Assembly: GCA_002683575.1 (NCBI GenBank)
Contig: NYTP01000116.1
Coordinates: 1 to 53,443 of the forward strand
Reading direction: 5' to 3'
DNA from: Bermanella sp.
GTDB lineage: Bacteria; Pseudomonadota; Gammaproteobacteria; Pseudomonadales; Oceanobacteraceae
DNA length: 53,443 bases
Shown here: one piece after another, positions 19,495 through 51,858 of the stretch
Numbering within the stretch: position 1 is the stretch's first letter
How the letters are laid out: each line of letters begins with the position of its first letter
Made by a program: the position numbers and the translations under genes
The notes under the pieces: generated by a model
The model's input: the letters and a program-made list of their open reading frames with translations, nothing else
Told to the model about the DNA's origin: nothing
Databases searched by the model: none

Positions 19495-20856
19495 ATGAAT
19501 ATACTGCCGTTGCTACCTGATGAGACAATATATTCATTTTTAGCACGGCTCAGAGTTTACTCGGGTAGCTATAATCATCGTTCAGCGAGCTTGCTCTGGT
19601 TTGAACAATATGGGCTAAGTTTAGACCAAAAGCTAGCCACCCACTTAGCGTATTTTTCTGCGCAAACGAAATTCCCAGTAGAACTATTACTTAATGATCA
19701 TACTTACTACCCCTTATTTTCTTTAGCGGGTAATGAGCCTAAAAAGCTTAAAGACGTTATGCTCACTGGTCCATCTTATCGATTAGGCAATTACGCTAAA
19801 ATCACCCAATCGGGTCTGAAAGCATTGAGCAAGGATAAATACTGTTTATCGTGCATAGAAGCTGATAAAGAGAAGTATGGCGTTGCTTATTGGCACCTGT
19901 CGCACCAGTTCACAGGCATACAAAGTTGCCATATACACAATACGTTACTTGTCGACACTTCGCCTTCATTAAGAGTATACAGCTTGCCTCCGCAAGCAAT
20001 ATCATCTTCTGATGTACCAGCGAGTGATTTACAGCGGTTTTTCACTACTTATGTGTTGGAAGTTAATGAGTCGGCTAAAAGTCAGAAGCGTAATGATTTG
20101 TTATTGGACAAAAGTAATTTGAATGCCCTGATTAGACAAAAAGGGTTTATGAGTAATGACAGTATCAGTATGCAACGTTTAATAGCAGTTATATCAAACA
20201 TAACTGTGCGCCTGTTTAATAACGATGTTTTTACTGAACACGTAGTAAGAAATCTTATTCGCAAGCCTTACTATGCATGTCATCCGCTTAAACTTATATT
20301 ATTTCGCTTTGCCTTGGAACAACTGCCTGACATAGCGGCGCAAGAGCATTTACAGTTATTGAAACCAACAGATAAAGATAAAAAACGTGAGAAACAGTGT
20401 CTATTATTACTACAAGAAGGTGAATTAAATTTTACTGAAATAGCTAGGCGTGTCAGCTGCTCCATAGGTTATGTGATTAAGCTAGCTAAACAAGAAAACA
20501 TAGCTTATTTAAAACGAACGCAATTTATTTCAGCTGATATAGAAAAGCGTATTTTAATGCGTTTAGTAAAAGGTGATGCTAGAGATGCAATAGCACGCGA
20601 AGAGCAAGTATCTGTTAGCTCTGTTGAGAAAATATGTGGTGAGCATTATCAGCTTTCAGAGTGGCGACAATACTTAAGGGCACTGGATAAAAGAGACAAG
20701 TATCGTATTGAGATGCGTTCAGTCCTTAAAAAACACTCCTTTTCTACACGTGCCGAAATTAAAGCTATGTACCCAGCTTGTTATATGTGGCTTTATAAAT
20801 ACGATACCCAATGGCTATATCTGCACCTACCGCCAGCATCCTATCGTTCAAAATAA
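19495..20856 (+). CDS. tnsD: TnsD-like TniQ protein, probable gcvP-site selector (element 1)
   Basis: This protein has 453 residues from ATG 19495; an in-frame TTG lies at 19474. The first residues, LPLLPDETIYSFLARLRVYSG, are the classic TniQ start, so the later ATG is preferred. The zinc block YCLSCIEAD ... YWHLSHQF ... CHIH follows. The C-terminal half holds two helix-turn-helix-like units (LNFTEIARRVSCSIGYVIKLA, then VSVSSVEKI). It ends with a WLYKYDTQWLYLHLPPA motif that element 2's TnsD also has. TnsD of Tn7 reads the end of glmS. By analogy this one should read the 3' end of gcvP, since the insertion is 5 bp past the gcvP stop. Confidence 0.9.
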   Translation: MNILPLLPDETIYSFLARLRVYSGSYNHRSASLLWFEQYGLSLDQKLATHLAYFSAQTKFPVELLLNDHTYYPLFSLAGNEPKKLKDVMLTGPSYRLGNYAKITQSGLKALSKDKYCLSCIEADKEKYGVAYWHLSHQFTGIQSCHIHNTLLVDTSPSLRVYSLPPQAISSSDVPASDLQRFFTTYVLEVNESAKSQKRNDLLLDKSNLNALIRQKGFMSNDSISMQRLIAVISNITVRLFNNDVFTEHVVRNLIRKPYYACHPLKLILFRFALEQLPDIAAQEHLQLLKPTDKDKKREKQCLLLLQEGELNFTEIARRVSCSIGYVIKLAKQENIAYLKRTQFISADIEKRILMRLVKGDARDAIAREEQVSVSSVEKICGEHYQLSEWRQYLRALDKRDKYRIEMRSVLKKHSFSTRAEIKAMYPACYMWLYKYDTQWLYLHLPPASYRSK

Positions 20857-20876
20857 TTAATAGAGGTGTAAGATTG

Positions 20877-21710
20877 ATGAGTCATCAAATCATTTGTATT
20901 CAAGTTAGCGAGCTTAATAAAAGTAGCCTCTATATGCATCATCGATTAACAACGCCTAGCTTGTGTTTAATTGAATATAGCGATGATTTAATGGCTCAAA
21001 TCGAACGCGCGCGGCAGGTACTTTTGAGCAATGAGTTAGAAGAAGTGGTATTAAAAGTAACGGGTATTAATTGGTTTTTTGAACTTACAAAAAGGTATGG
21101 GCACAATACAGTATCGTACTTACATGTGACCCCCTACACGATTTCTTTTTCGGGGTTAGTGCCACCTAATAAAGAGCCTTACTTTATCACTCCTTATATA
21201 GCTACAACTGATATTTTAATCGACGGTTGTACACTTAAAAAGGTTGAGCTAGATAAAAGACGCTATACGTTGGCTTTATCTATGGTCAAAGAGCTTGAAG
21301 TAAAGGAAGTTGAACTCGAAGAATTATCTAATTTAATTTGGCGTTTAGACGAAGTAGGGAACTCAATACACGAACTGGATAATAGTTGTATAAATAGCTT
21401 ATCCGCCGGTTGTGATTCCACTTTGCTAAGTATTAACGAGGAGATTAACCATTTAGAGGCAAGGCTGGAAAAGCTGGAACTTTATATAGAGAAACTTCTA
21501 AGGCGATTAGTAAAGCGCTTGTTTGGTATCGGTTACGGTGATTGGTTAACACATATTAGTGCTGAGACGGGGAATAAAGTCAGCTTACGTTTTGAGCATT
21601 GTAGTTATCATAATAAAGTAATTACATTTAGTGGTGTGGGTATTACTAAGGCAGGTAAAGTGGGTAAACGCTATCAATCAATTAGCATTGATATTAGGAA
21701 AGAGGGATGA
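20877..21710 (+). CDS. Unrecognised protein downstream of tnsD (element 1)
   Basis: This 277-residue protein from ATG 20877 has TAGAGGTG upstream; an earlier in-frame ATG at 20811 would overlap tnsD. I do not recognise it. It has a beta-rich N-terminal third and a helical middle with Leu/Glu heptads (VEVELEELSNL, then NHLEARLEKLELYIEKLLRR, likely a coiled coil at about residues 165-210). The tail is compact (FGIGYGDWLTHIS ... KVGKRYQSIS). No TnsE similarity, nuclease core or membrane segment is visible. It lies 20 bases after tnsD and overlaps the next gene by 4, so the two belong to one unit and may be read with the tns operon. Confidence 0.7.
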   Translation: MSHQIICIQVSELNKSSLYMHHRLTTPSLCLIEYSDDLMAQIERARQVLLSNELEEVVLKVTGINWFFELTKRYGHNTVSYLHVTPYTISFSGLVPPNKEPYFITPYIATTDILIDGCTLKKVELDKRRYTLALSMVKELEVKEVELEELSNLIWRLDEVGNSIHELDNSCINSLSAGCDSTLLSINEEINHLEARLEKLELYIEKLLRRLVKRLFGIGYGDWLTHISAETGNKVSLRFEHCSYHNKVITFSGVGITKAGKVGKRYQSISIDIRKEG

Positions 21711-22441
21711 ATATCCAATCCTTGATTTCAAAGCTAAAACAAGCCAAAAAGCGCCGAGTTATATTTGATTATCATCGTTCACCAAAAAATGGAGTTGATA
21801 TAAGTACCGAAGACTGGATATGGATAGCCCCTTTTTTGTATGGACTGTTTAAAGAGCTTAAATCAATGAAGTACACCATTACGATAACATGGTGGGGAGA
21901 AATTTTTGTTATTTACAAAGGGGCTGATACTGCATTTGAATTGACTTTAAATTACCAATCCTCCGTTCCCTATACTTATGAATTCACGCAGCGAGTACGA
22001 GATAAAACCCATGTTATACACACGATTTCAACTAGACAGACTGCTTTAAGTTTAGGGCTGAAAGCCTATCGTACGGGAACCAAATGGTTCTATATCCCTT
22101 TAGGAGAATCCACAGCTACGCCAGCTAGTGCAGCATGTAAGATTAACGAAGTGATGCAATCTCGACTTAAAGAATATAGTTTTGCTGGCTGGTCAGTAAA
22201 ACCCGATATAGCGACGTCAGATGACATTGCAGCTGTTATTCATTACGGAGCAGCCTTATTTGGCTTAGGCTCCAGGTTTGATTACATCTCTAAGAAGCTT
22301 CTTGAATTAATAATTTACCAAGACATTGAGTTAACCAATAATGCTGTACACATAAAACGTAGCCTTTATCTAAGCGGCTATGAGTTTTATCTAGATATTA
22401 AACACCTCTCTTTTATAAAAAAGTATTTACCTCCTCAATAA
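21707..22441 (+). CDS. Unrecognised protein, partner of the preceding gene (element 1)
   Basis: This 244-residue protein is unrecognised. The start overlaps the previous stop (ATGA), which implies coupled translation and possibly a complex. The sequence has many aromatic residues (DWIWIAPFLYGLFKELK, TITWWGEIFVIY). A helical stretch with alanines follows (TATPASAACKINEVMQ), and the C-terminus is probably globular and beta-rich. No catalytic motif, signal peptide or transmembrane helix is seen. It could be cargo (a two-gene defence unit) or an accessory to transposition. Position directly after tnsD and before the end repeats does not decide between these. Confidence 0.7.
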   Translation: MNIQSLISKLKQAKKRRVIFDYHRSPKNGVDISTEDWIWIAPFLYGLFKELKSMKYTITITWWGEIFVIYKGADTAFELTLNYQSSVPYTYEFTQRVRDKTHVIHTISTRQTALSLGLKAYRTGTKWFYIPLGESTATPASAACKINEVMQSRLKEYSFAGWSVKPDIATSDDIAAVIHYGAALFGLGSRFDYISKKLLELIIYQDIELTNNAVHIKRSLYLSGYEFYLDIKHLSFIKKYLPPQ

Positions 22442-22866: not shown

Positions 22867-22932
22867 TGGCGATCAACAATTAAGTTTGTGAACGCTACAA
22901 TTAAAAATGTGAGTACAATTAAGATTGTGAAC
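22867..22932 (+). repeat. Element 2 gcvP-proximal end with three TnsB-type sites
   Basis: Three direct sites lie at 22876-22893 (ACAATTAAGTTTGTGAAC), 22897-22914 (ACAATTAAAAATGTGAGT) and 22915-22932 (ACAATTAAGATTGTGAAC). Their spacing is 21 and 18 bp, a packed right-type end. Confidence 0.88.
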
Positions 22933-34252: not shown

Positions 34253-34602
34253 TGTTTGATACGTAATCAATAAAACGACGTTTAAGATCTAAAGGTTTGA
34301 ATGAAATACGTACAGAATTTTGGTTCTGGATTAAATAAATTTAAAAAAGTCTTAAATTTTTTCACTTTTTTGATCCTGAAAAAGCTGTCACAACAAAATC
34401 ATTGTTTCCTCTCAAGTAAATCAAAAAGTTAGCAAATCGCGCTAAAAAGCATCGTTGATATATTTCAATTATTTGCTCTTTTTTTAATTTAATAACACAA
34501 CAAAATCGTTGTTTTTCATGTGGTTAAATTAATTTTGAGCTTGATCTTAGATCCTTTTTCGATCTCTAATATGTATTTGGATCAATGTGAGAAGGAGTAC
34601 AC
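34253..34602 (+). promoter_or_regulatory. Control region of the element 2 tns operon with a duplicated dyad
   Basis: This 350-bp AT-rich gap holds no gene. CACAACAAAATCATTGTTT (34389-34407) is repeated at 34496-34514 with one base changed, 107 bp apart. Each copy contains the dyad AACAA-N5-TTGTT. Two near-identical dyads ahead of tnsA look like a pair of operators, perhaps for TnsB or for the HigA-like protein at the end of the operon. A good ribosome-binding site (GAAGGAG) precedes the tnsA ATG at 34603. Confidence 0.6.
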
Positions 34603-35460
34603 ATGAGAACGTTGATTTATATAAAACCGCCAAAAACGGTAAAGAAATACAAGCAATGGATTGTTGATATTTCTAATGGGGAATATCGTTCCTATTTGAC
34701 GGTCAGGGATGTTAATAAGATCGGGCGTCGGCATTGGATTTTCTGTGATATACAAAATCGCGAAGTACACCTTTTATCTGATGGTGAAAGACGTATGTAC
34801 ATGGAATTAATTTACAAACCGAATACTGTAGCCATTTTTGAGCAATATGCCCTCGATCTTGACGAAACGCTTGATATTGCAGTTGAACTTAACATTCTTC
34901 ATCCGAGAAATTGGAAAACAAAAGAGGCCTACGTAATGTCGACAGATTTTCTAGTCGAGACAGTATCAGAAGACGGTCAAACGACAAAGCTTACGGCTTA
35001 TACATTCAAGTACTGGGAACAAATCTTCAAGTTGAATTGGCTTGACAAAGTTGAGTACAAAAGTATGAGAACTTGGCAAAAGTTCGCTATCGAGCGGGAG
35101 TTCTGGCGACGCCGTGGCATTGAGTATCGAGTTGTAACGGAGCGTGATGCCACGAAAGTGCAATACCACAATAAGTTGTTCTCAGAGTCGGCCAAAGACT
35201 TGAAGGTCTCGAATGAAAAACTTACAGAATTCTTAACCTGTTTTTGCGAGAAGTGGCAACTTGCCCCGTGGCTCCAATTACAGGATCTAATTAAACAGGT
35301 CAGCAATACGCTCGCCATCTCGGATAGTTATGCCAGGCAGCTATTTAGATTCTCTGTACTTTATGGCTTTCTGCCAATCTGTCAGGAATGTGAGGAGCAC
35401 ATGATTCGCTGGTTTCGTCCTGTCTCATTGATACAGGATGAGTTGGAGGTGGCAGCATGA
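34603..35460 (+). CDS. tnsA: TnsA, transposon-end endonuclease (element 2)
   Basis: This 285-residue protein is the 5'-end nuclease of element 2. Active-site residues line up as E80 (AIFEQYALDL), D115 (MSTDFLVE) and the TFK triplet 134-136 (AYTFKYWEQ). Tn7 TnsA has E, D and QxK in the same order. The first residues (MRTLIYIKPPKTVKK) and the helical C-terminal half (LTCFCEKWQLAPWLQL) fit the family. The ATG has GAAGGAG six bases upstream. The stop overlaps the tnsB start (ATGA). Its sequence is clearly different from TnsA of element 1, so the two elements are distinct lineages and not copies. Confidence 0.95.
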   Translation: MRTLIYIKPPKTVKKYKQWIVDISNGEYRSYLTVRDVNKIGRRHWIFCDIQNREVHLLSDGERRMYMELIYKPNTVAIFEQYALDLDETLDIAVELNILHPRNWKTKEAYVMSTDFLVETVSEDGQTTKLTAYTFKYWEQIFKLNWLDKVEYKSMRTWQKFAIEREFWRRRGIEYRVVTERDATKVQYHNKLFSESAKDLKVSNEKLTEFLTCFCEKWQLAPWLQLQDLIKQVSNTLAISDSYARQLFRFSVLYGFLPICQECEEHMIRWFRPVSLIQDELEVAA

Positions 35461-37691
35461 GGTTTGAAGGTGAACATCTATACAAAGATGAAATTGATTC
35501 CAAACTGGAAAAAGTTACTTTGCAAATGTCTTACCGCATTTGTCATGTAAGTTCTTGCCGTGAATTTTATGCTGTTGCCGACATGCTTCAAGCCATGAAG
35601 GTAACAAACCCTCCAAAACCAAGAGTGTTTAACAAAACTCAGTTAGCGCAGTTTATTCAAAAGCAGGGGCTGAAGACCGGTGAGCCTTATGATTTACCGG
35701 AGACGCTTAGCATGTCTGACAAGGCTCTTTTGAAAGATGGATATGGTGCATGGCTTACCAAAAGAGACTTTAAATTTAATCATATAGAGTCGTTAACTGC
35801 GCCGCATTTAGTTGAGCAATATCTTTATGGGAAAGGGCTAGGAACAGAGATTGAGGGTTTGCTTTTATCATCGACATTGAAATGGAAATCGAAAGGTGCG
35901 TATCACAATGCGCTAAATCGATTCATCATTTTTGGTCTGGTGCCAAATGCTTTAATTTCGTTCAAATGGGATAGTATTGGTAAAAATTATCCTGAAGCTG
36001 AAACCCCAAAAGATACAATAATTAAACGTGGTAGAGGCGGTAAAGATAATCGTAAAAGCCGCACGCAATTTAGAGGTATCACAACTCTAGACAAAAAGAA
36101 TATTGCAGAGGTCGTAAAACAGTGGATCCGTGAGGGTAGGAAACTTAGTAAGCGTAAGGTATTTGAAAGCTTTCAGGATACGTTTCAAGTTGCCACTGTT
36201 ATTCGAACTGTAGGCGAACATGACATACCTTATTATGAGTTGCTTCCATCTGAAGAGCGCATTTCGCGTCGTATGTTCCATTATCACTTTAATCGGATTT
36301 TTAGCCGAGCAGAACAGCTGGAAATGAAGGTTGGAACTTTCAAGTTTAAGAAGGACTATGAGGCACGACAAGGCACAGCGCTCGATGGAATAGTTGGTGC
36401 TAGCCACCGTTACGAAGTTGATGCGACGGTATTAGATTTATACGTCAGATATCCATATATCAAGGATGCTCGATATAGTATGGGGCGTCCAACACTATAT
36501 TTCGTTATCGATGTGTATTCGACTATGATCGTTGGGTTTTACCTAGGGTTTGGAGCTCCAAACTCTGATGGCGTTGCGCAGGCTATGGTCAATGCCTGCA
36601 TGTGCAAAGTTCAGTTTGCACAGCGCTATGGCTTGTTTATCGATGAGTCTGATTGGCCTGCTTTTTTTATTCCTCGCGAAGTGACGATAGATAATGGAAC
36701 TGAGTACCCTAATAAACTTGTGGCCTCAATTCTCAAGTCAACACTTGGTATCAAAGCATTCAATTTTACGGCGGTATACCGAGGAGACGCGAAAGGGACT
36801 GTTGAGGGTACTTTTAATACGTTTAACGGTGAAGTTGCTCATTTTCAACCAGGCTCTATATTCAAGGAGGTTGATCGCACTGAGCAACACCCATCAAACC
36901 AAGCTGTTTGGGATTACAACAGCTTGGTTCGTAAAATCATCAACTTCATCATTTTGCAAAACAAATCGGCTAAACGTCTTAAGAAGCTGAATTTTGAGGC
37001 TATGGTGGATGATATCGACATTTCGCCAGAATCGATATTTCTTCACAGCTTGGAAAAGGATATGGATGGTGGCCGCAAAACGACGCCACATGATGAAGCT
37101 ATGCTTCGTTGGGCGTTTCTGCCTGAGGAAGAGGCCAGAGTGCGTCCGAACTGTGTTTTCTTTAATGGCCTTGAATATCACCACCCGCACTTTCGTGAAG
37201 AAGGTTTGTATCAAGTCGCGGCATTAGAAGGCACATTCCCAATCATTGTGAAACGGGTAAAAGACTGGACAAACCACATATTTTGCCGCGTCAAATCCAA
37301 GGGTAATGGTACTAAGTTCAAGTACCTCACACTCACTTTGAAAAACCCAAACAATGGCTCGCCATACTGGGGAATGTCTTGGGATATTGTTGCGCATCAA
37401 CTCGAATGGCTTGAAATGAAAGTTGTGGCGCATGAGGAATACGCTGCACGCTTGCGTCAACACATACGCAGTATGGACGAGACCGAGTTTGACCGCTTAA
37501 TGGGACAAATTGCTTTATTACCCGAGAATGAACGTAAATCTATAGTTCCCAGAATTAAAGAGTTTCAAGCTATTGGCAAGAAACTTAACACCCTGACTCA
37601 TGCCCGAGATGTGATGGTTGCATTAGGGTTTGAAGGCGAGGCCGTAGAATTTGAATCACAACAAGAACTCACAACCACGGAGGGTTTTTAA
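35457..37691 (+). CDS. tnsB: TnsB, DDE transposase (element 2)
   Basis: This 744-residue protein has the catalytic triad D322 (YEVDATVLD), D412 (IDNGTEYPN) and E450 (GTVEGTFNTF). The spacing is nearly the same as in element 1's TnsB (90 and 38 residues here, 91 and 38 there). An N-terminal helical DNA-binding region precedes it and a beta-barrel-like C-terminal region follows (YWGMSWDIV). It should bind the ACAATTAA-type repeats at 22876-22932 and 47883-48013. It overlaps tnsA by 4 bases and tnsC by 1. Confidence 0.96.
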   Translation: MRFEGEHLYKDEIDSKLEKVTLQMSYRICHVSSCREFYAVADMLQAMKVTNPPKPRVFNKTQLAQFIQKQGLKTGEPYDLPETLSMSDKALLKDGYGAWLTKRDFKFNHIESLTAPHLVEQYLYGKGLGTEIEGLLLSSTLKWKSKGAYHNALNRFIIFGLVPNALISFKWDSIGKNYPEAETPKDTIIKRGRGGKDNRKSRTQFRGITTLDKKNIAEVVKQWIREGRKLSKRKVFESFQDTFQVATVIRTVGEHDIPYYELLPSEERISRRMFHYHFNRIFSRAEQLEMKVGTFKFKKDYEARQGTALDGIVGASHRYEVDATVLDLYVRYPYIKDARYSMGRPTLYFVIDVYSTMIVGFYLGFGAPNSDGVAQAMVNACMCKVQFAQRYGLFIDESDWPAFFIPREVTIDNGTEYPNKLVASILKSTLGIKAFNFTAVYRGDAKGTVEGTFNTFNGEVAHFQPGSIFKEVDRTEQHPSNQAVWDYNSLVRKIINFIILQNKSAKRLKKLNFEAMVDDIDISPESIFLHSLEKDMDGGRKTTPHDEAMLRWAFLPEEEARVRPNCVFFNGLEYHHPHFREEGLYQVAALEGTFPIIVKRVKDWTNHIFCRVKSKGNGTKFKYLTLTLKNPNNGSPYWGMSWDIVAHQLEWLEMKVVAHEEYAARLRQHIRSMDETEFDRLMGQIALLPENERKSIVPRIKEFQAIGKKLNTLTHARDVMVALGFEGEAVEFESQQELTTTEGF

Positions 37692-39136
37692 TGAGTTTAC
37701 AAATCGATGCGCAGTACCGCAAACACCCAGTATCGCAGTTCAATGGCAATCCGCTTACTGAGGCTTTACCTGTGCCTCTGAGCGTAACTGAGTTGCTTCC
37801 TCGTACGACTAAGACGATGGAATGTGACGCAGATTTTTGGTCGTTAGACCAACTCTATCAACGTGCAATCTTGCAGAGCATGGGATGCACCCACGTTCCG
37901 TCGGATAAGTTTGTCACGTTTTACCAAAAATGTTGGTCGCTTTTGCTGCATTCTTATGCCACCAGAAATCCTCTAGAGCCGACATCCATGGCACTAAAAA
38001 TGGGGCTTGCAGAGGCTTACCGCTCGAAACCCGACAGTTCCATAAAGCGCGGCATTGCTACTCATAAAACCACGGCATCAAGCGTCTTGGTTACTGGGTA
38101 CAGTGGAGCTGGAAAAACTACAATGATTCGCAGTGCATTAACAGTTATTCCACAAGTGATTTGTCACACTGAGTTTCAAGGGAAACCTTACAACCAAAAT
38201 CAAATTGTATGGTTGTCTTTGGATATGCCCTCAACGCCTTCGTTAAAAGCCTTGGCGCTCAATTTCTTCAAGGCTGTTGATGATGCCACTGGTACTACGG
38301 ATTACTTTGAGCAGTGGGACGCTCGTAATCGTGAATCCGTTGATCGGCATTTATCTGGAATGCAGTTGGTTGCTGCCACCCATGAGATTGGTTTAGTGCA
38401 TATTGATGAGCTCCAGTTCTTGTTGGCCTACGGCAACTCAGACAAAGCTCCAACCCTTACAATCCTTGAAGCCATGTTCAACAAAATTGGTATTCCAATG
38501 ATTATCAGCTGCACAGATTCAGGGTTGCAGTTATTTTCGAAGCATGTCCTTGTCGATGGTAAATCGCAACCTGAAATCACTACGCTTCGCCGATTAGTCA
38601 ATGATAGAGAATTTCGATTGGCGACCTATTCGAAAAATGGGGATATGTTCACTAACACATTACATGCGCTTTATCCCGATTGGTCCCTCCTACATTGCAG
38701 CGAATTATCGACTGAATTCGTTGATAAGTTCTATGAGTATACCAGCGGGCTCCCGGCATTTATGACTCGCCTGGCACAAGTACATCAGGAGTATCTGGTG
38801 TTTCTGTACAATGAAGGCAAACTTGAACCTGGCACATCGACAAATACCGTTAAATACTTGGAAACTGTATTTTTCAATCAGTTTCAGCTGTATAACACAG
38901 CGCTGAAGCATCTGAAAAATAAAGATATAAGGGCTTATGAAGATGCCATTGAGGAAGCACAGAAAGCGGAAAATACAGAGTCTGCATTGTCGGGAAGCCC
39001 TAAAGGTTTTAAATCGCCGCCCAAAAAGTCGGCATCACGGTCGAGTCCAAAAGCACCATTAATTGCCCCTATGCTGGGAGCAAACATATCTTCTGGCGCG
39101 AGTATAGGTAACTTTAAAATGGGGCTTAAAGACTAG
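37691..39136 (+). CDS. tnsC: TnsC, AAA+ transposition regulator (element 2)
   Basis: This 481-residue ATPase connects target choice to the transposase. Walker A is GYSGAGKT at 136-143. Walker B is VHIDELQF, with D239 and E240. The C-terminal 60 residues are a low-complexity, Ser/Lys/Pro-rich tail (SPKGFKSPPKKSASRSS). That is longer than in element 1's TnsC and is the type of tail that contacts TnsA or DNA in Tn7. The start codon overlaps the tnsB stop by one base, and tniQ begins 3 bases after the stop. Confidence 0.95.
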   Translation: MSLQIDAQYRKHPVSQFNGNPLTEALPVPLSVTELLPRTTKTMECDADFWSLDQLYQRAILQSMGCTHVPSDKFVTFYQKCWSLLLHSYATRNPLEPTSMALKMGLAEAYRSKPDSSIKRGIATHKTTASSVLVTGYSGAGKTTMIRSALTVIPQVICHTEFQGKPYNQNQIVWLSLDMPSTPSLKALALNFFKAVDDATGTTDYFEQWDARNRESVDRHLSGMQLVAATHEIGLVHIDELQFLLAYGNSDKAPTLTILEAMFNKIGIPMIISCTDSGLQLFSKHVLVDGKSQPEITTLRRLVNDREFRLATYSKNGDMFTNTLHALYPDWSLLHCSELSTEFVDKFYEYTSGLPAFMTRLAQVHQEYLVFLYNEGKLEPGTSTNTVKYLETVFFNQFQLYNTALKHLKNKDIRAYEDAIEEAQKAENTESALSGSPKGFKSPPKKSASRSSPKAPLIAPMLGANISSGASIGNFKMGLKD

Positions 39137-39139
39137 GTT

Positions 39140-40102
39140 ATGGCGACGATGCATTTTTTCTTACCACTGCTACCTGATGAGCACTACTTTTCTCGCATTG
39201 CCCGCATGGCAGTGCTTACACCCACTAAATCGATGGCCGACTTCTTTCGATCTTGGTTTAGTGTGAATCAGTCGGTTAACCCTCTTAAGGATTATCAAGC
39301 CGTATGCAACGGCTTGATAACACATTCCAAAGCGACTATGTGTGAAGACTTGCTTTGTCGGCATACGAGTGCTGGTTTCTATAGTCATTTTCTTGATGTA
39401 GAGCGTCGTAGAGAGCTGCTCAAAGGGAAAGCAAAGTGTGATCGTAAGAAGCTTTTCATTCCCGGATTAACCAAAGTACAAAATGCAAATTGTTGGAGAG
39501 CTTGCCCGCAATGTATAGAGGAAGATATTGAAAATTTTGGAACACCGTATTGGCATGTCAGTCATCAGTTACCGACAGCCAAAGTTTGCACTAAACATGT
39601 GTTTCAAACGCTGATTGCAGGTTGCAACTGTTGCGGTTGGGAAAATATTGATTTAAGGAAAAATCCTTTGCCCGAGGCCATATGCCCGAAATGTAATCAT
39701 GATATGCAGGAGAGTTCACCAACTGCTATTGAAGCGAACGTTGCAATTCAAAGTATGGGACAAGAGCTCTACTTAAACTCGTGCTCTCTTCAGTGTCCAA
39801 TGAATGAGCGGCAAATGCTTCGCTCAGTTGAGCATGCTTTTGGCGACGCGATTCGAAGCCGGAATCAAGAATATTGGGAAACTAAAACACAGGTAGAGCA
39901 TGAGTTCTGGGATTGGGTTCTGGAGAACCAAATTGGTAACTACTTCAATATAAACACAGAAGCTGAACTTCATGAGCTTCTTCGCCTTGAGTCGGTAATA
40001 AATAACCCTACTAAGGTTACACCAATGGCTCACATTATTTGTCTAGCGTTTTTCAATCAAATTGGTCAACCCAATCATGATGGGCTATCACTCGTCTCTT
40101 GA
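39140..40102 (+). CDS. tniQ: Short TniQ-family protein (element 2)
   Basis: This 320-residue protein opens FFLPLLPDEHYFSRIARMAVL, a standard TniQ start. Two zinc blocks are visible. The first is ACPQCIEED ... YWHVSHQLP ... CTKH at about residues 118-152, and the second is GCNCCGW ... CPKC shortly after. The extra second zinc site is absent from the short TniQ of element 1. The protein is too short to contain the TnsD DNA-reading half. As in element 1 it precedes a full TnsD, so paired TniQ proteins are a shared trait of both elements. It overlaps the next gene by 26 bases. Confidence 0.9.
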   Translation: MATMHFFLPLLPDEHYFSRIARMAVLTPTKSMADFFRSWFSVNQSVNPLKDYQAVCNGLITHSKATMCEDLLCRHTSAGFYSHFLDVERRRELLKGKAKCDRKKLFIPGLTKVQNANCWRACPQCIEEDIENFGTPYWHVSHQLPTAKVCTKHVFQTLIAGCNCCGWENIDLRKNPLPEAICPKCNHDMQESSPTAIEANVAIQSMGQELYLNSCSLQCPMNERQMLRSVEHAFGDAIRSRNQEYWETKTQVEHEFWDWVLENQIGNYFNINTEAELHELLRLESVINNPTKVTPMAHIICLAFFNQIGQPNHDGLSLVS

Positions 40103-41513
40103 GACAGACGAAATACCTTACAGTTGGTTAGTCGTATACTGTCAACTGTCAGGGCTTCCTTCTACAAGACTATTACTTGAGCGAAGCCAATTGGCACATT
40201 GTCAATTAGCTTCTCAACTCCCTGGGTATATCCCTTTCATCAGCAAAACTATTGGGCTACCAGAGAGTAAGCTCATTAATGAGCATACTACGCTTCCCCT
40301 TTTCCGATGTTTTTTACACGAAAAGACGTATTTCTCTGTGTTTAATAATCTCGCTGAAGGCAACGGTAGCAATCTTCATTCACGTATGTCGCTTATAGCC
40401 AATAGAGTTAGCGCCGGTACTGTTTTAAGGGCTTGTCCTGAATGTATTAAAGATGACTTAGAAAACGTTGGCCGAGCATGGTGGCATTTACAACATCAAC
40501 TTCCTGGCTGTTCAGTTTGCTTGAAGCATTGTGAACCATTGATAGAAGTAGAGGTACGACGTAGAGAGCTAATTCAGCCAACTCAGTTAGCAACTCAGCA
40601 TCCATTAAACTTGAGCGAAATAGACCTTCAACTAAGTGGTCTGATTGATGATGTATGGCACCGAAATCAGCCTGCAATTCAATATAACGATTTATTGAAT
40701 CGATACCGACAGCGGCTTGTGGAAGTCGGTTTTGCACTTCACCAAGGGGCCATTCGGCAAGAGAAGCTGCGTCAAGCACTAAGGGCATATTGGTCGGAGA
40801 GTACCTCCCTAGTAGTGCAGCAATTGTTAATCGATAACAGCTATCCTGAGAAGTTGTTCAGAGCCCAAAGGGCACAGTTTCATCCGTTAAAACATCTATT
40901 GCTTATTGGAATGCTATGGAAATCTTGGCAGCAGTTCGTCGAATACAACACAAATGAGCCCGGATTACACGAAAGCTGTGACGTTAATTTGTTGAATGAA
41001 GATAACTCAGATGCTGACATTTTACGCTTGCTTAGAGATGGGCGCTCTCTGAGAGAAGTATCACAGCATTTCAAGCGAAGCATTATATATGTCAAAAAAA
41101 TTGCGGTGCAACACAGTGTCCAAGTAGACAGACGTCCCAAAAGGATATTCGGTGTAGATAGAGAGTTAATTATTGGAATGCTTAAGAGTGGCGTTAATAC
41201 GCGCCAAATCGCCAACAAGGTTGATTGTTCTGTCGGTGCAATAGAGCAGGTTCTATCGCAGTATCCAGACATTGTGGAATGCCGACAACAGATTCGTTTC
41301 AAGGCAAAATGCTTGGAGCATCAAAATTGTATTCTTAGTGCTTTATCGGAGCACCCAGATTTTCACCGAGGCGAAATTCAACGTGAATGCAGAGCAAGCT
41401 ACACCTGGCTCTTTAAGCATAATCAACAGTGGCTATACGAGCACGTTCCTCCGGCTATTCCTAGACAGTTTAGGTATCAAGGTGGGAAGAATAACCAAAA
41501 AAATGAGCATTAA
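40077..41513 (+). CDS. tnsD: TnsD-like TniQ protein, probable gcvP-site selector (element 2)
   Basis: This protein has 478 residues from ATG 40077. An ATG at 40080 and a TTG at 40062 are alternatives; none has a strong ribosome-binding site, so translation probably depends on the overlapping tniQ. The TniQ domain shows DEIPYSWLVVYCQLSGLP, then the zinc block ACPECIKDD ... WWHLQHQLPG ... CLKH. The C-terminal half has helix-turn-helix units (LREVSQHFKRSIIYVKKIAVQH, RQIANKVDCSVGAIEQVL) and ends with SYTWLFKHNQQWLYEHVPPA. That ending parallels the end of TnsD in element 1. Shared C-terminal design and a shared insertion point suggest both read the same gcvP sequence. Confidence 0.9.
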   Translation: MMGYHSSLETDEIPYSWLVVYCQLSGLPSTRLLLERSQLAHCQLASQLPGYIPFISKTIGLPESKLINEHTTLPLFRCFLHEKTYFSVFNNLAEGNGSNLHSRMSLIANRVSAGTVLRACPECIKDDLENVGRAWWHLQHQLPGCSVCLKHCEPLIEVEVRRRELIQPTQLATQHPLNLSEIDLQLSGLIDDVWHRNQPAIQYNDLLNRYRQRLVEVGFALHQGAIRQEKLRQALRAYWSESTSLVVQQLLIDNSYPEKLFRAQRAQFHPLKHLLLIGMLWKSWQQFVEYNTNEPGLHESCDVNLLNEDNSDADILRLLRDGRSLREVSQHFKRSIIYVKKIAVQHSVQVDRRPKRIFGVDRELIIGMLKSGVNTRQIANKVDCSVGAIEQVLSQYPDIVECRQQIRFKAKCLEHQNCILSALSEHPDFHRGEIQRECRASYTWLFKHNQQWLYEHVPPAIPRQFRYQGGKNNQKNEH

Positions 41514-42960
41514 TGACGGAGTGAATGTGAGAATGATTAAACCTCCACATCCAGGTGAAACGTTGAAAGAGCTTTATCTCGACCCTCTAGGTTTAGATAT
41601 CGAAAACACAGCAAATAAGCTTGGAGTAAGTAGTATCCAATTGAAAGAATTCGTAAATGGCAGTCGAGGAATTACAAACTCTTTGGCTACTAAGCTTGTG
41701 GACGAATTTGGTGGCTCTGCACAATCATGGTTGAACCAGCAGAAACAATATGACGATTGGCAATCAAATAAAATCGAGTACACCACAAGTGGATTGAATA
41801 CGTTGAGATATCAGTATCAATATATGTTGGTAATTGACGTTGAACATACTTGTGACGCTAATAATGAAATACCCGTTGATGAACGAGAACTCATTGAATT
41901 GGGCGCAGTAATCTTGTGTTGTAAAACATTAAAGATGGAGGCTGCTTTTTCCAGCCTGATTAAACCGGTAAAGCATCCTATTTTGACCGACTTCTGCGTT
42001 TCTCTCACCGGAATTCAACAAGAAAATGTTCAGCAAGCCGACATCTTCCCAGTTGTTTTTAATCGATTTTTGGCTTGGTTACAGAACTATCCCCGATATT
42101 TATTTTGCTCTTGGGGAGCGTACGATCGTGTGCAGCTAGAGTTGGATTGTAAACGGCATTGCACCGCCGAACTTCATTGCGAACAAGAGCTTAATATTAA
42201 AAAAGCATTCGCAAAAATAATGAAAATAAAGCCTCGGATTGGATTAAAGAGAGCCATGGAATGGTTAAAACTGGCATATGATGGTGAGCATCATAGAGCG
42301 CTAAGTGATGCGAAAAATGCAGCAAAAATTTTGAATTTGTTATTGCAGCCAGAGCTTAGTGAGACGATGTCTAAAAATATGCGGCTAAACATCGATGCAC
42401 TAGTAGAGGGGGAAGAGCATATCAAAGAGCTGAGTTCTGCTGGCTTTGTTAATGTTTCAAGTGAAAAGAAAGCACTGCATCCAGCCCGTTACTTTGAAGA
42501 ACTATTCTTACCTAAACTCAAAGCTAAGGGGGTAAGTGATATGGATATTTCCACGCGTTTGGGCATTTCTGAGCAGTTGTACTTGGACTTTCTGGGCGAA
42601 AAGGTCAGTATTACAAGTGGTTTTGCCAATAAACTTGAAGCTCTCACTGGAATGCGCGTCGAATTTTGGTTGAGAGCTCAAGTCAAATTTAATGATTGTC
42701 TTTACTACCATATCTTTGACGTTGTCACTGAGGGTAAAAGTGCTGCGTTAAATTTAAAGGCCGAGTTAGATGAATTAATTAAGCAGAGTGATAACTCTGA
42801 ATTACAAGAACAACTAAAAATCAGAAAAATTGCAGGAGTCGCAAGAGGAATCTTATCTCATATAAAAGCTAAGCATAGTATTTCAGATGAAGAGTCCATG
42901 TTACAAGTGATAGAGCGAGCGCTTGAAGATATAATTTCTACCAACAATGATAAGCCATAA
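41503..42960 (+). CDS. HigA-like HTH / DEDDh exonuclease / HigA-like HTH fusion
   Basis: This protein has 485 residues from ATG 41503; ATG 41533 is an alternative beginning right at the first domain. Residues 13-80 match HigA-type antitoxin repressors (PPHPGETLKELYL ... LGVSSIQLKEFVNGSRGIT). Residues of about 108-285 form a DEDDh 3'-5' exonuclease: D112 and E114 (VIDVEHT), D208 (SWGAYDRVQ), H264 and D269 (HRALSD). Residues of about 325-400 are a second HigA-like unit (HPARYFEELFLPKL ... LGISEQLYLDFLGEKVSIT). The gene overlaps tnsD by 11 bases, so it is the sixth gene of the tns operon. I know of no described Tn7 component with this design. It could be a DNA-bound nuclease acting on ends or targets, or a regulator. 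Confidence 0.85.
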   Translation: MSINDGVNVRMIKPPHPGETLKELYLDPLGLDIENTANKLGVSSIQLKEFVNGSRGITNSLATKLVDEFGGSAQSWLNQQKQYDDWQSNKIEYTTSGLNTLRYQYQYMLVIDVEHTCDANNEIPVDERELIELGAVILCCKTLKMEAAFSSLIKPVKHPILTDFCVSLTGIQQENVQQADIFPVVFNRFLAWLQNYPRYLFCSWGAYDRVQLELDCKRHCTAELHCEQELNIKKAFAKIMKIKPRIGLKRAMEWLKLAYDGEHHRALSDAKNAAKILNLLLQPELSETMSKNMRLNIDALVEGEEHIKELSSAGFVNVSSEKKALHPARYFEELFLPKLKAKGVSDMDISTRLGISEQLYLDFLGEKVSITSGFANKLEALTGMRVEFWLRAQVKFNDCLYYHIFDVVTEGKSAALNLKAELDELIKQSDNSELQEQLKIRKIAGVARGILSHIKAKHSISDEESMLQVIERALEDIISTNNDKP

Positions 42961-42976
42961 TTTGACTCAATACTGT

Positions 42977-43140
42977 AATGAAGCTTTGGTTTCGATCAGG
43001 ATGAAGCCTTATTCGCGATCAGGATGGAGCCTTAATGCGGTTGGATATTATAATGAAGCCTTGTTTGTGATCAGAGTGAAGCCTTAATTAGGTCAAATAT
43101 TGTAATGAAGCATTGATTGGTTTGGAATATTAGAATGAAG
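42977..43140. repeat. Periodic array of seven ATGAAGC-type repeats
   Basis: Seven copies of a core close to ATGAAGCCTT start at 42978, 43001, 43024, 43053, 43076, 43105 and 43135. The spacings are 23, 23, 29, 23, 29 and 30 bp. Some copies share a longer unit, GATCAGGATGAAGCCTTA (42993-43011 and 43016-43034). The array fills the gap after the exonuclease fusion gene and ends 37 bp before the next small gene. The period is too short for CRISPR. It resembles iterons or a multi-operator. It does not resemble the element's TnsB end sites. Confidence 0.8.
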
Positions 43141-43176
43141 GCATAGCTTTAGCATGGATTAAAAAGGTGCAGTAAA

Positions 43177-43410
43177 ATGAATACATTCAATATCACAATC
43201 AAATTTGACCTTAGAGATGACAATATGTCCATGGACAACATTGATGATTTGCTTTTTGAAGGTGGCTTTGATGATGCTTTTGTTAGTCACTCATGTACTG
43301 GCCAGATTGAAATAGAAATTAGCAGAAATGCTGAAACTGAAGACATTTTAATTGAATCAATAGTACGAAAAGTTCGCGGTCTATTCCCAAATTCCAAATT
43401 TTTAAACTAA
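43177..43410 (+). CDS. Small hypothetical protein after the repeat array
   Basis: This is a 77-residue acidic protein, unrecognised. The predicted order is strand, helix, strand, strand, helix (TFNITIKFDL, NIDDLLFEGGFDD, IEIEISRNAE, ILIESIVRKVRGLFP), which would be a small alpha/beta fold. The ATG follows AAAGGTG. It is placed directly after the periodic repeats, which may be its control region. Confidence 0.65.
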   Translation: MNTFNITIKFDLRDDNMSMDNIDDLLFEGGFDDAFVSHSCTGQIEIEISRNAETEDILIESIVRKVRGLFPNSKFLN

Positions 43411-43658: not shown

Positions 43659-43707
43659 TAAGGAATGGGCCGTTGAGGCCCTTTATTTAAATGGAAAATA
43701 ATAAAGC

Positions 43708-44097
43708 TACATTCCCGACTGGTTCTTGATGCGCTAGAGCAAGCTTTATGGGCACGAGGGAAGCCGAAAGGCGTTATACATCACAGCCTATTGTGGCAGC
43801 CAATATGTTTCTATCCGGTACTCCGAGAGATTTTCTGAAGCTGGCTTCAGCGCCTCCGTTGTCAGTGTTGGGGATTCTTATGACAATGCCTTGGCAGAAA
43901 CCATAAACGGTTTATACAAAGCAGAATTCATCCACAAAGACGGTCTTAAGAAAAGGTTGGAGCAAGTCGAGCTAGCCACATTGGATTGAGTTGATTGGTT
44001 CAACAACAGAAGACAGTTGAGTTCTATCGGTGATATCCCGCCACTGGAATATGAGGAAAACTATTATCGACAATTAGCCGAAGATACGGCAGCATGA
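43708..44097 (+). pseudogene. IS3-family transposase (orfB) C-terminal remnant
   Basis: Translation recovers the tail of an IS3-family DDE transposase: LVLDALEQALWARGKPKGVIHHS, then GSQYVS, VGDSYDNALAETINGLYKAE and WFNNRRQLSSIGDIPP, ending at the stop 44095-44097. It is broken by a frameshift just after the IHHS segment (around 43780-43792) and by an in-frame TGA within LDWVDWF (about 43988). The N-terminal two thirds and orfA are missing. It is a dead fragment inside element 2's cargo. Confidence 0.85.
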
Positions 44098-44305
44098 GTC
44101 AAACAAATCCGCCTCCGAATTTACCGGCGCGATTCACCTCAACTCGTGTTTCTTGTTTTCTCTACCCTAAGCTTCACCAACGAAAAAAATCATTAGTCTT
44201 ATTTGGTAACATCTAAATTCACTGTCTATATTTTAAACTCTATTTAACAGGGCTTGCAAACAAAAAAGCCGCCGTTCGAAAACACACAAATTAGAAGGAA
44301 CTAAG

Positions 44306-47882: not shown

Positions 47883-48022
47883 ATTCACAAATTTAATTGT
47901 TTTTGATGTGGCAAAAAGAGTTTTGAGAAAGATAGATATTCACAAATTTAATTGTATTTTGACTAAGCGTAACACTATGATTTACATAGGCTGCTATTCA
48001 CAGTTTTAATTGTTTTTCTCCA
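47883..48022 (+). repeat. Element 2 distal end with three TnsB-type sites
   Basis: Inverted end repeats lie at 47883-47900 and 47938-47955 (both ATTCACAAATTTAATTGT) and at 47996-48013 (ATTCACAGTTTTAATTGT). They are 55 and 58 bp apart, followed by the terminus TTTCTCCA at 48022. This wide spacing is a left-type Tn7 end. Confidence 0.88.
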
Positions 48023-48027: not shown

Positions 48028-48097
48028 TCAAAGTTATTATAGTTTGGGAATGAAATTATAGATTGGGAATCCAATCGCTATTCCCAAACTATAATTA
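48025..48097. mobile_element. Probable relic of a third Tn7-like element at the same site
   Basis: Two direct copies of ATTATAGTTTGGGAAT (48036-48051, and 48055-48070 with one mismatch) are followed by a perfect inverted copy at 48080-48095. Packed direct repeats starting about 10 bp inside a TG, right at the gcvP site, mirror the ends of elements 1 and 2 but with a different sequence. The inverted copy could be what remains of the other end after an internal deletion. TTGAA occurs just after it (48098-48102) and just before the TG in the rebuilt site (256-260). A simple long hairpin is the main alternative. Confidence 0.5.
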
Positions 48098-48579: not shown

Positions 48580-51500
48580 TTGTTTAAAAAAATAGGGAAA
48601 TTGCTTAATTCACTTAAATATCAGATAGATAAAAATATTAATGAAACTATTTATAAAAATAAAGTATTTCTTCAAAGTAAGTGGAGCTTTTTTGAATACA
48701 ATATTCTACGTTGGTCACAACGGCACAACTATTACACTTTACTTACTGCTGTATTGGCGTGTTTATTAGTAATTAATTTAATCTGCTGGAAAGTTGAATT
48801 AACTCCATTAGTAATTAAGTTCTTCCCACATTGGACAAAACTTAACGACTGGCAAGGTGGTTTTCTTTCTGGGCAGTTAACTATTGTCGGTGTAGTCTAC
48901 CCCTTAGTCATAGGTTTAATTGGTGTCCTGTTTCAAAACAAATCAGCGAAGAAAACATTATTTCCAATTTATCAGATGTATTCCGGATTTATGTTTGCTG
49001 GCCTTAGTGGACTTTTCTTATCAATTTTTATTATTACAGGGTATTTCTTTAGTGCAACTATGGATGCCTCTACTTATCTTGCTATATGCGTTACAACTGC
49101 ACTATGGTTGATGTTTAATGTTTTGTTAACTAGCTGGTTTTTTACTTCTACACTCTTGATGTTGGATGAAAATAAACGAGATAGGTTGGTTGTTCGCTTC
49201 ACTATTCATGAATTGTGCGAAACAGATATTAGAAACCGAATACACGATCTTTTATTACAAAATTCAGTTTATAACCAAGCATTGGCAAACCCAGATAATG
49301 AGATCTTGAAGGTTAGTACCTATAAATTATCGGATGATAAATTTAATGAAATAACTAAATACTCTGAAGAGGAAATTTACGCTTCTAATGTTTACTTCTC
49401 TATCATAAATACGGTTATTCGCTACCACATTATAAAATTCAAAATACTTCTTTCGATAAGTGATAAAGCATGGGTAAAGTGGTTGGTTTCTAAGAAGGGC
49501 TTTAGTTGGATGTGTGTAGCTTCAAGCGTGAAACGGGAGCTCGTAGTTCAACCTGTCTGGACCAATAAAAGTAAGGCAAGACTAATAATAATCCGATATT
49601 CTGGTTTTGATATCGGTTGGATATCAAAGATATTATTAAAAGCGAGTTTCAGAACCAAAAGAGCAGACCAAGAGCATGATAGTAGTTTGACTACCATGAT
49701 GCTTGGCTTCGTTGGTTCAGCTAATGATGCTATTCGAGAAAAGAATGTTGGGGAGTTTAAAAATGCCATAAAAAACATTGTTAGGTGGCATGTTGAAATA
49801 GCCTCTGCGCTAAGCTTTTTAAATGATAATCGTAAAGAAGATAATTGGTTGTTGTTACCTACAGCTAGCTTTTTCAGTAGAAGTTATCTTGATGAAATCT
49901 TGACTGAATATTACCGACTCGCAAAGGCGTCTGTTGAGTTAATCCCAGAAAATATCGAGTTTTATGACGAAATAATTTATTTGCATAAACGAATTTTTCT
50001 AAAACGAGAGCGCATGGTTGAACGAGAGGGATTTTCATTAATCCAAGGTAGTTATTTTACGTGGTCATTATTAATGGAGTGGCGTTCATATAGTTCAATG
50101 TCATCAGATCTGCGCATCGCCAACAAGTATGAAGATGTACTCTTTGATTTTGTTGGTTCATGGGAATCTTGGTTGGATTATATTGAACCTAGAACTACTC
50201 GACTAAATGACATACAAAAATCGTTGCCGTTATTTATCAGCCATCTAGAGTTTACAGCGCATACTGTTATATCAGCACTAAGATTCAATAATATTGAAGC
50301 TGCTGGTTGGGGGATAGATATGCTAAATAATTGGTATGAAAAGCTATCTATTCGAGATCATGGACAAGGGTTAGAAGAATATAGATGGCACTCTGAACTC
50401 GTCACTCATGACATGTTGCTTAAAAATTCAGGAGAGAAAATTTGGATAACGGCATTGAATGACAGCGAATTCCATCTTCAGCCTGCTTTCAATATTGCTA
50501 TGAATAATGCCTCTTTTGATCTTCGAGTAATTACAGCTTGCTACGTGTTATTAAAGCCGGATTTAAATGGGAATGAACAAATAAAGCAGTATATTCAAGC
50601 GTTACTTTCATGCACATCAATTCATCCAACCGGCGCGCTTGGTGGCAGAGTTAAGTCAGTATCTAATGCTAGCTGTATCATTGGTGCTTATATTAGACAC
50701 AGAGATTACAGTAATTATGGCGAAGGGACTTATGGGGCATGGCTTTCAAAAGTTTTAGATTCTTTCGGAAAAGTTAATGAACAGCGAAGAGTTTCTGGGC
50801 GTATCTACTCAGGCTGGGGAAGAAATGACCCACATAGTATGAATAGAGCTTATGTAGAAATTGCAGTATCACTTTCGAATAATCAATGGCAGCTAGCAAA
50901 GAAATGGTACGATATTATTTTTTCTGAAGCTTTCCGGCACCAAGATAAAGAGTCATTTGTTCGCGATTTACAAGAGTGGATTAGGCTTTCTGAAGATATT
51001 GAAGAGCCAATTCTAACTAATAAAGATAATTTGACTACTAATGTAAGTAACTTTAAAAACTCTATTCAGCAAGTAATTGATAGAATTAATCAACAACAAA
51101 ATGAGATTGTTGCTGAGGCTGAAATTGACGAAGAGCTACTGACTAGATTTGGACTAACTTGCTCTCAGGCTATTTATGGGGATGAAAAAGATCCAGAGTT
51201 CCCAATAAATTTGTTCAATTCTGTAAGTTTTAACGGTAGTACTGATGAAAATAGCTTATTTAAAATTAACAGACAGAAGTATTCAAAAGAGAGAATAGCT
51301 AAAAATATTGACACGAATAGAGCGATCAATGAAGAAGATTGTTTGAAAGAATCTACTAAAGCTAATGTTAAAGTCAACATTTTAAGAAGAGTGCTATGGT
51401 ATAAAACTACTGATGAAAAAGTATACGCAAGCGCTGAAAACAATATTCTTGATTTGGCTGAATTAGCCAAAGATATAAATAATCCTGTTTTGTTTTCTGG

Positions 51501-51858
51501 AAATATGGATCTAGACCGTTTTCTCCGTGAAGCTCGATATAGGCAAGAGTTAGCCGATAAGTTTGATATTTCCTTCAATGACGGTTATGGCAGAAATTAC
51601 ATTTGTCATTTGGGTGATATAATTGTATTTAGCATTCGCTTCTCTGACGTGAATTTTAATTTACTTACGACTAAAGATTTATTTGAATCAGTTGCATTCG
51701 GCAAAGTGACTGATAGGCAGTTTGTTGAAGTTAAATATGAAGCTAGTGAAAATGATGAAAATGTTGGAGTTTTATCGTTAAATTACTGGATGAATATAAA
51801 ACTTGTAGAGGGCTTACCTTGTATAAAAACAGAAGTAAAAAACAAGAGTGAAGAATAA
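48580..51858 (+). CDS. Large membrane-anchored protein of unknown function
   Basis: This 1092-residue protein uses a TTG start at 48580 with GGAGA about 7 bases upstream; no suitable ATG lies near. Four membrane helices are visible at about residues 52-70, 100-118, 133-157 and 164-195. A cytosolic region of nearly 900 residues follows, mostly helical, with many Trp and Tyr. No ATPase, nuclease or protease motif was found. It stands alone, is AT-rich and lies between an integrase relic and a protease gene, so it may also be acquired. A large soluble region on a four-helix anchor would suit a sensor or envelope-linked defence protein, but nothing in the sequence proves that. Confidence 0.8.
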   Translation: MFKKIGKLLNSLKYQIDKNINETIYKNKVFLQSKWSFFEYNILRWSQRHNYYTLLTAVLACLLVINLICWKVELTPLVIKFFPHWTKLNDWQGGFLSGQLTIVGVVYPLVIGLIGVLFQNKSAKKTLFPIYQMYSGFMFAGLSGLFLSIFIITGYFFSATMDASTYLAICVTTALWLMFNVLLTSWFFTSTLLMLDENKRDRLVVRFTIHELCETDIRNRIHDLLLQNSVYNQALANPDNEILKVSTYKLSDDKFNEITKYSEEEIYASNVYFSIINTVIRYHIIKFKILLSISDKAWVKWLVSKKGFSWMCVASSVKRELVVQPVWTNKSKARLIIIRYSGFDIGWISKILLKASFRTKRADQEHDSSLTTMMLGFVGSANDAIREKNVGEFKNAIKNIVRWHVEIASALSFLNDNRKEDNWLLLPTASFFSRSYLDEILTEYYRLAKASVELIPENIEFYDEIIYLHKRIFLKRERMVEREGFSLIQGSYFTWSLLMEWRSYSSMSSDLRIANKYEDVLFDFVGSWESWLDYIEPRTTRLNDIQKSLPLFISHLEFTAHTVISALRFNNIEAAGWGIDMLNNWYEKLSIRDHGQGLEEYRWHSELVTHDMLLKNSGEKIWITALNDSEFHLQPAFNIAMNNASFDLRVITACYVLLKPDLNGNEQIKQYIQALLSCTSIHPTGALGGRVKSVSNASCIIGAYIRHRDYSNYGEGTYGAWLSKVLDSFGKVNEQRRVSGRIYSGWGRNDPHSMNRAYVEIAVSLSNNQWQLAKKWYDIIFSEAFRHQDKESFVRDLQEWIRLSEDIEEPILTNKDNLTTNVSNFKNSIQQVIDRINQQQNEIVAEAEIDEELLTRFGLTCSQAIYGDEKDPEFPINLFNSVSFNGSTDENSLFKINRQKYSKERIAKNIDTNRAINEEDCLKESTKANVKVNILRRVLWYKTTDEKVYASAENNILDLAELAKDINNPVLFSGNMDLDRFLREARYRQELADKFDISFNDGYGRNYICHLGDIIVFSIRFSDVNFNLLTTKDLFESVAFGKVTDRQFVEVKYEASENDENVGVLSLNYWMNIKLVEGLPCIKTEVKNKSEE

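Follow-up and report, generated by a model that had tools for sequence, protein, structure and literature searches.

The closest described relatives of the locus reported here are the transposon Tn7 with its tnsABCDE genes, the ERI1/KapD-type DEDDh exonucleases, the HigA antitoxins of HigBA modules, and PDC-M06, a candidate in PADLOC. PDC names denote candidate systems (PMC12548924, PMC11811056). In this study, we analysed a stretch of 53,443 nt from Bermanella sp. (contig NYTP01000116.1 of assembly GCA_002683575.1; hereafter the window), which contains a Tn7-like transposon, here called element 2. Its tnsD gene is followed by a gene for a fusion protein in which an exonuclease lies between two helix-turn-helix (HTH) domains.

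The exonuclease domain of the fusion resembles the ERI1/KapD-type enzymes in its five catalytic residues and in its PDB and NCBIfam matches, but it is flanked by HigA-type HTH domains and its KapD match, at 72 of 169 bits, is below the cut-off. The first HTH domain (HTH1) reaches the HigA cut-off and the second (HTH2) is a diverged relative; in contrast to HigBA, these domains are joined to an exonuclease, and the neighbouring open reading frames (ORFs) that were scanned contain no HigB family. A protein of 77 amino acids (aa) encoded downstream, together with its relatives, matches the N-terminal part of component B of PDC-M06. Like Tn7, element 2 has tnsABC and tnsD, and the cassette described below sits at the position held by tnsE in 12 of 30 related loci. 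Unlike Tn7, it has an additional tniQ, no TnsE match, and gcvP rather than glmS as its neighbour (gene names that we assume from the sequence, with no family search).

We propose, with a probability of about one half, that the fusion represents, in fused form, a mobile cassette of three parts (exonuclease, HTH2, and small protein) and that this cassette is probably a unit of toxin-antitoxin-like or defence type. Three diverged Tn7-like lineages carry the cassette in the last position of the tns operon, and in one of them it is fused.

The fusion protein and its cassette

The ORF at 41503-42960 (+) is present in the window and encodes 485 aa. Residues 109-277 match Pfam RNase_T (E 2.9e-19), and the closest PDB match of the exonuclease part is human ERI1 (E 1e-23). 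NCBIfam antidote_HigA (TIGR02607) matches two stretches of the fusion (E 1.7e-27 for the whole protein), and the closest PDB matches of the N-terminus are HigA-type antidote proteins. Scanned alone against TIGR02607, HTH1 scored 77 bits (E 7.5e-22), above the family cut-off of 47.7, and HTH2 scored 25.5 bits (E 8.4e-6), under it; the PDB match of HTH2 to HigA was weak (E 0.04). Judged by these scores, HTH2 is HigA-like and diverged. The DEDDh catalytic set D112, E114, D208, H264, and D269 is complete. The preliminary description of this DNA, in which two HigA-like units and an exonuclease with these five residues are joined in one ORF, was thus borne out, though with HTH2 below the family cut-off. 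A single-sequence AlphaFold model of the fusion, with a predicted local distance difference test score (pLDDT) of 39.5, was not used.

The same description had the fusion gene overlap tnsD by 11 bases, which is doubtful because the overlap depends on the ATG at 41503. A start there is itself doubtful, since this ATG is a GTG in the copy of the gene found in genome G688 (the sequence between that codon and the end of ATG 41533 being identical), the TIGR02607 alignment starts at residue 11 (numbered from 41503), and the best ribosome site seen, GGAG, lies 5 bases 5′ of GTG 41527 and 11 bases 5′ of ATG 41533. Translation probably starts 13 or 19 bases past the tnsD stop codon, and the overlap is a probable start-codon error. 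That the fusion gene follows tnsD stands; that the tns operon ends with it is doubtful, because the operon may continue into the 77-aa gene at 43177, which is part of the same cassette.

The cassette became apparent in 325 genomes of the family to which the host of the nearest tns relative, Alteromonas sp. 1_MG-2023, belongs (the genome sets of our several searches, including those of 293, 369, 325, and 166 genomes, partly overlap, and their numbers are not additive). One full-length second copy of the fusion was found, 86% identical to the window's, in G688. The HTH2 part was found in eight further genomes, giving nine loci with G688; this count is of hits of the fusion protein (P0001) at E 1e-18, which weaker copies would escape. 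Seven of the nine (all except G708 and G773) have an exonuclease gene, or a fragment of one, no further than about 4 kb away, and a relative of the 77-aa protein is present at seven (undetected in G716 and G773). The parts are separate genes in G766 and G794. In G708 and G828 the small protein is fused in front of HTH2, in G952 the order is HTH2 and then small protein, and only in the window and G688 does the exonuclease lie between two HTH domains in a single chain. The fused gene and the exonuclease gene of G952 overlap by 4 bases; toxin-antitoxin pairs typically have operons of this shape.

When aligned, the free-standing HTH2 gene of G960 has its start methionine at Met289 of the fusion, and the separate exonucleases start near residue 90; on this alignment, the fusion reads as HTH1, exonuclease, and HTH2 joined from formerly separate genes. 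The five catalytic residues are kept in all eight full-length exonucleases aligned (the window, six other cassette copies, and a bare exonuclease from G258), and the exonuclease fragment of G716 lacks the first two. PADLOC PDC-M06B was matched by 8/8 small proteins scanned, over its N-terminal part, and none of the other PDC-M06 models was matched among the cassette proteins scanned. The 77-aa protein has a predicted beta-alpha-beta-beta-alpha fold (model pLDDT 82); Foldseek with this model gave no match at E 0.001, and a Pfam scan of the small proteins gave no family.

Between the window and G688, the ratio of nonsynonymous to synonymous substitution rates (dN/dS) was 0.27 for the fusion gene, 0.17 for its exonuclease domain, and 0.06-0.25 for the tns genes, all single pairwise estimates that are rough because of the signs of recombination along the fusion. 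Synonymous divergence is uneven along the gene (0 in HTH1, 0.14 in the exonuclease, and 1.19 in HTH2), which suggests recombination. The pairwise signature is that of purifying selection on the fusion. An assembly artefact or a chance ORF was ruled out by the G688 copy together with the ratio of 0.27.

How such a unit would work can be proposed as follows. The exonuclease would be the effector of the cassette, and the HigA-like and small proteins, which are fused together at three other loci, would restrain it and either repress or sense. In Tn7-like elements the cassette lies at the end of the tns operon and begins no more than about 20 bases from tnsD, so its products would be synthesised alongside the transposition proteins. 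In the lineage of the window, an extra HigA domain would have been added in front, and the exonuclease and HTH2 would have become one chain. On the sequences compared here, the cassette would be co-transcribed with the tns genes, and its exonuclease would be enzymatically active and controlled by its partners, in a unit that would serve defence or addiction; the cassette may be toxic and may protect against phages. Its surroundings include defence genes at several places: the cassette parts of G960 flank GajA and GajB of Gabija, the G828 copy adjoins type I restriction genes, and element 2 itself carries type I restriction and McrBC-like genes.

Several observations weigh against a toxin-antitoxin-like or defence unit. 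No HigB (RelE-like) Pfam family was found in the window ORFs at 43177, 44306, 45367, 46464, 48580, and 52330 (shorter ORFs were left unscanned). At none of the 23 exonuclease loci from wider genomes (G258 included) did tblastn find a HigA-like neighbour within 1.5 kb. Toxin-antitoxin modules are usually common on plasmids, and 72,556 plasmid records held no relative of the 77-aa protein of G960 at E 0.01. The 77-aa gene has a dN/dS of 0.53 between the window and G688, so its constraint is weak. We found no paper that names PDC-M06 or defines it, and no partner component among the cassette proteins scanned. Finally, the recurrence behind tnsD in three tns lineages, to which we now turn, exceeds what is expected of random cargo.

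The place behind tnsD

Genome contigs were scanned for a TnsB alignment by means of two short TnsB patterns, with confirmed hits alone counted, which gave 12 loci related to element 2. The nearest is L045, that of Alteromonas sp. 1_MG-2023 (identities to element 2: TnsA 81, TnsB 77, TnsC 74, TniQ 58, and TnsD 61%). Two of the 12, L049 and L046, end before or within tnsD, which leaves ten readable past it; L052 and L054 share genomes with G254 and G258. Neither fusion nor cassette follows tnsD in any of these ten relatives of the same TnsB clade (L045 and nine others), and no cassette lies near tns genes in the 30 fetched tns loci from relatives of G794, which rules out the fusion as a fixed or conserved component of Tn7-like elements. 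Whole-genome searches of the relatives' hosts found a close exonuclease only in G258 (48%), a more distant one in G665 (35%), and in G661 nothing but a HigA match. The G258 exonuclease is bare cargo of its element, whose end repeats at 151125-151240 and 197438-197491 enclose it, and lies about 27 kb away from tnsD; we count this placement among the points in favour of a mobile unit.

No second full-length fusion was found in 293 genomes of the order of the window's organism or in 369 of its class, and an order-level search with an HTH2 profile gave G688 as its sole strong match, with weak matches in G679 and G677 (E 4e-13). No plasmid or phage record covers 80% of the fusion protein; tblastn of plasmids with HTH2 and the small protein gave HigA-type matches only, or none; and viral contigs searched with the fusion protein, TnsB, and the 77-aa alignment gave no confirmed relative. 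The full fusion was therefore seen solely behind tnsD, as 2/2 full-length copies, and in this respect a link with tnsD holds. Related elements do not share it, as the ten relatives show, and the unfused cassette also occurs away from tns genes, four of its nine loci having none in the DNA fetched (that is, no tblastn hit at E 1e-5 with Tns protein queries). The remark that no such component is known from Tn7-like systems agrees with the literature searched, where we found none described; in the accessible parts of PMC10293859 and PMC8649781, a word search found neither 'exonuclease' nor 'gcv'.

Four of the nine cassette loci have tns genes upstream. G688 belongs to the tns lineage of the window, G794 and G708 form one glmS-site lineage, and G766 represents a second, with TnsC 27% and TnsD 41% identical to the first. 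The G708 locus has no exonuclease, and its cassette is separated from tnsD by what we take to be an insertion-sequence-like gene. A fifth locus, in G716, is a remnant in which the exonuclease is truncated and lies about 330 bases from glmS. The remaining four (G828, G952, G960, and G773) are those where no tns genes turned up in the sequence retrieved around the cassette. Because the cassette exonucleases of the two glmS-site lineages are 86% identical and their TnsC proteins only 27%, the cassette, or a stretch that includes it, moves between elements.

This recurrent place makes a role in transposition possible. The fusion might be a transposition accessory in the place of TnsE, with the HTH domains or the 77-aa protein guiding the exonuclease to the ends of the transposon or to targets of a second class, where it would trim or repair intermediates. 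The tight spacing fits such a role: the first cassette gene begins 13 bases past the tnsD stop codon in both G794 and G766, as against 13 or 19 in the window. So does the presence of the cassette behind tnsD in three tns lineages, and so does the comparison of the two fusion elements. The McrB, McrC, and Tns proteins of the G688 element are 85-98% identical to the window's, and tnsD, the fusion, and the small gene are common to both, while the gene content from the small gene to the left end is not. The state of TnsE points the same way. Among 166 relatives of G794, tns loci were located through 35 TnsB places. Two of these, at contig edges, were set aside and three are the cassette loci themselves, which left 30 for retrieval; some of the 30 have little or no DNA past tnsD (L184 ends just after tnsC, L180 has no tnsC or tnsD at the cut-off, and L179 comprises about 1 kb). 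TnsE was found in 12 of the 30, mostly directly after tnsD, and was undetected in the three cassette-bearing glmS-site elements. The cassette thus sits in the tnsE slot of elements without detectable TnsE, but with three elements an exclusion between cassette and TnsE cannot be significant and is not claimed.

Against a TnsE-like accessory, the TnsE C-terminal domain PF18623, which scores 6.5e-35 and 3.4e-43 for the TnsE proteins of two related elements, is not among the Pfam matches of the fusion. The absence of the cassette from the ten clade relatives and the 30 other tns loci, and the four cassette loci that have no tns genes in the fetched DNA, also speak against it. Moreover, G794 (no tnsC, and a tnsD without its first part) and G766 (an in-frame stop in tnsB) retain full-length cassette exonucleases despite their damaged tns genes, which favours a use of its own over a part in transposition. 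We therefore regard the accessory role as doubtful. In a related form, a nuclease cassette would repeatedly have taken the tnsE slot and the HigA-type fusion would guide the ERI1-like exonuclease to particular DNA, for the processing of intermediates or for a second target route; this we consider unlikely.

It is also conceivable that the fusion is mainly a repressor of the tns operon, its two HigA-type domains binding the DNA before tnsA and its exonuclease being secondary. HigA proteins are autorepressors, and CACAACAAAATC[A/G]TTGTTT repeats do lie before tnsA, but these are conserved in L045 in the absence of the fusion gene and so do not point to it. A second repeat cluster lies 3′ of the fusion. 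The motif RATGAAGCCTTR occurs 32 times in the window, against 21 expected, a number reached by 0/100 shuffles; because seven copies stand downstream of the fusion in the window against about two in G688, these repeats look like a local expansion. Two other identities for them were rejected: a transposon end, since the ends are located elsewhere (22877-22931 and 47884-48012), and a conserved operator, since G688 has about two units. Both stretches put forward in the preliminary description as candidate binding sites, 34389-34514 and 42977-43140, are weakened by these comparisons. Given also that the catalytic residues are kept in all eight exonucleases aligned, a protein that is mainly a repressor is improbable.

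Finally, a general-use exonuclease for RNA or single-stranded DNA, carried as ordinary cargo without a special tie to tns or defence, would suit the stand-alone exonuclease relatives, which are common at ordinary chromosomal places, and the distant cargo copy of G258, but in the cassette the exonuclease is accompanied by HTH2 and the small protein, and the position after tnsD recurs, which makes this reading quite improbable. Taken together, a defence or addiction role is more likely for the recurring cassette than one in the transposition machine.

Host element and neighbouring features

Element 2 extends over about 22868-48028 and carries, in order, type I restriction genes, McrBC-like genes, tnsA, tnsB, tnsC, tniQ, tnsD, the fusion gene, the 77-aa gene, and more cargo (Table 1). 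The rve match of its TnsB is weak (E 0.0097, under the cut-off) and is backed by homologues at the same place in the operon. With TnsA/B/C, TniQ/TnsD, and inverted arrays of end repeats all present, element 2 is a Tn7-like transposon; in G688, three inverted sites of the end motif CAATTAARWTTGTGAA likewise lie beyond the fusion. No 5-bp target duplication was recognised by eye at the inferred ends, the right flank being split by element 1.

Table 1. Positions of the fusion gene, its cassette, and the features of element 2 (coordinates are those of the window unless a contig is given)
Feature	Position	Strand	Basis or remark
Fusion gene HTH1-exonuclease-HTH2, probable coding range	41533-42960	+	Pfam/NCBIfam domains; 86% identical copy in G688
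HTH1, HigA-type helix-turn-helix, residues 11-88	41533-41766	+	TIGR02607; PDB 3cec and HigA chains
ERI1-like DEDDh 3′-5′ exonuclease domain, residues 102-286	41806-42360	+	Pfam RNase_T; ERI1 chains in PDB
HTH2, HigA-like	42367-42690	+	TIGR02607 below cut-off; Met289 aligns with start Met of G960 HTH2 gene
C-terminal tail after HTH2	42691-42960	+	No family found
77-aa third cassette protein, PDC-M06B-like	43177-43410	+	PADLOC PDC-M06B E 4.4e-11; model pLDDT 82
Second fusion copy (G688)	L098:12845-14275		After tnsD; 86% identical to the window's
tnsA	34603-35460	+	Pfam TnsA
tnsB	35457-37691	+	Weak rve match; homologues at same operon place
tnsC	37691-39136	+	Pfam TnsC-type AAA/TniB
tniQ	39140-40102	+	Pfam TniQ
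tnsD (TniQ and TnsD domains), directly 5′ of the fusion	40062-41513	+	Pfam
CACAACAAAATC[A/G]TTGTTT repeats before tnsA	34389-34514	.	Aligned stretch conserved in L045
Seven degenerate RATGAAGCCTTR copies, 23-30 base spacing	42977-43145	+	About two units in G688
Element 2 right-end repeat sites (CAATTAARWTTGTGAA), three direct	22877-22931	+	Repeat search
Element 2 left-end repeat sites (CAATTAARWTTGTGAA motif), three inverted	47884-48012	-	Motif also left end in G688

Element 1, at 263-22860, is bounded by an exact 25-bp inverted repeat with the 5-bp duplication GAATG on both sides and has its own diverged tns set. A third end array lies past element 2, at 48037-48094; three Tn7-like elements therefore appear to stand in tandem beside gcvP, at 1-48130 of the window. 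The 3′ end of the gcvP-like gene is at the window start (1-252). In the relatives L047, L048, L051, and L054, a gcvP-like gene lies upstream of tnsA, and such a gene adjoins the right end in several elements of the clade. One literature search on gcvP as a Tn7 attachment site turned up nothing on this subject.

Directly after the tnsD of element 1, at 20811-22441, lie two ORFs (299 and 244 aa) without a Pfam family, which is another case of uncharacterised genes in the slot after tnsD. In L048, L051, and L055, this slot holds differing small genes; in all three, a short gene or piece after tnsD is presumably low-molecular-weight-phosphatase-like. Further along element 2, at 43700-44100, there is no long ORF, and the sequence resembles what we take to be the remnant of an IS3-type transposase. 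Just inside the third element, a 1092-aa ORF at 48580-51858 has no Pfam family. In another genome (G821), a stand-alone exonuclease of a different subgroup (EATC motif; L111, 6614-7189) adjoins a glmS-like gene, and the DNA fetched there gave no match to the window's Tns proteins.

Implications

Fused and unfused copies of the cassette form a direct, testable pair, whether the cassette serves transposition or defence and addiction. A role in transposition would give Tn7-like elements a nuclease step as well as an alternative to TnsE. A role in defence or addiction would make the cassette a three-part nuclease system that is not described in the literature we found, and would point to the end of the tns operon as a favoured slot for the co-expression of such units with transposition.

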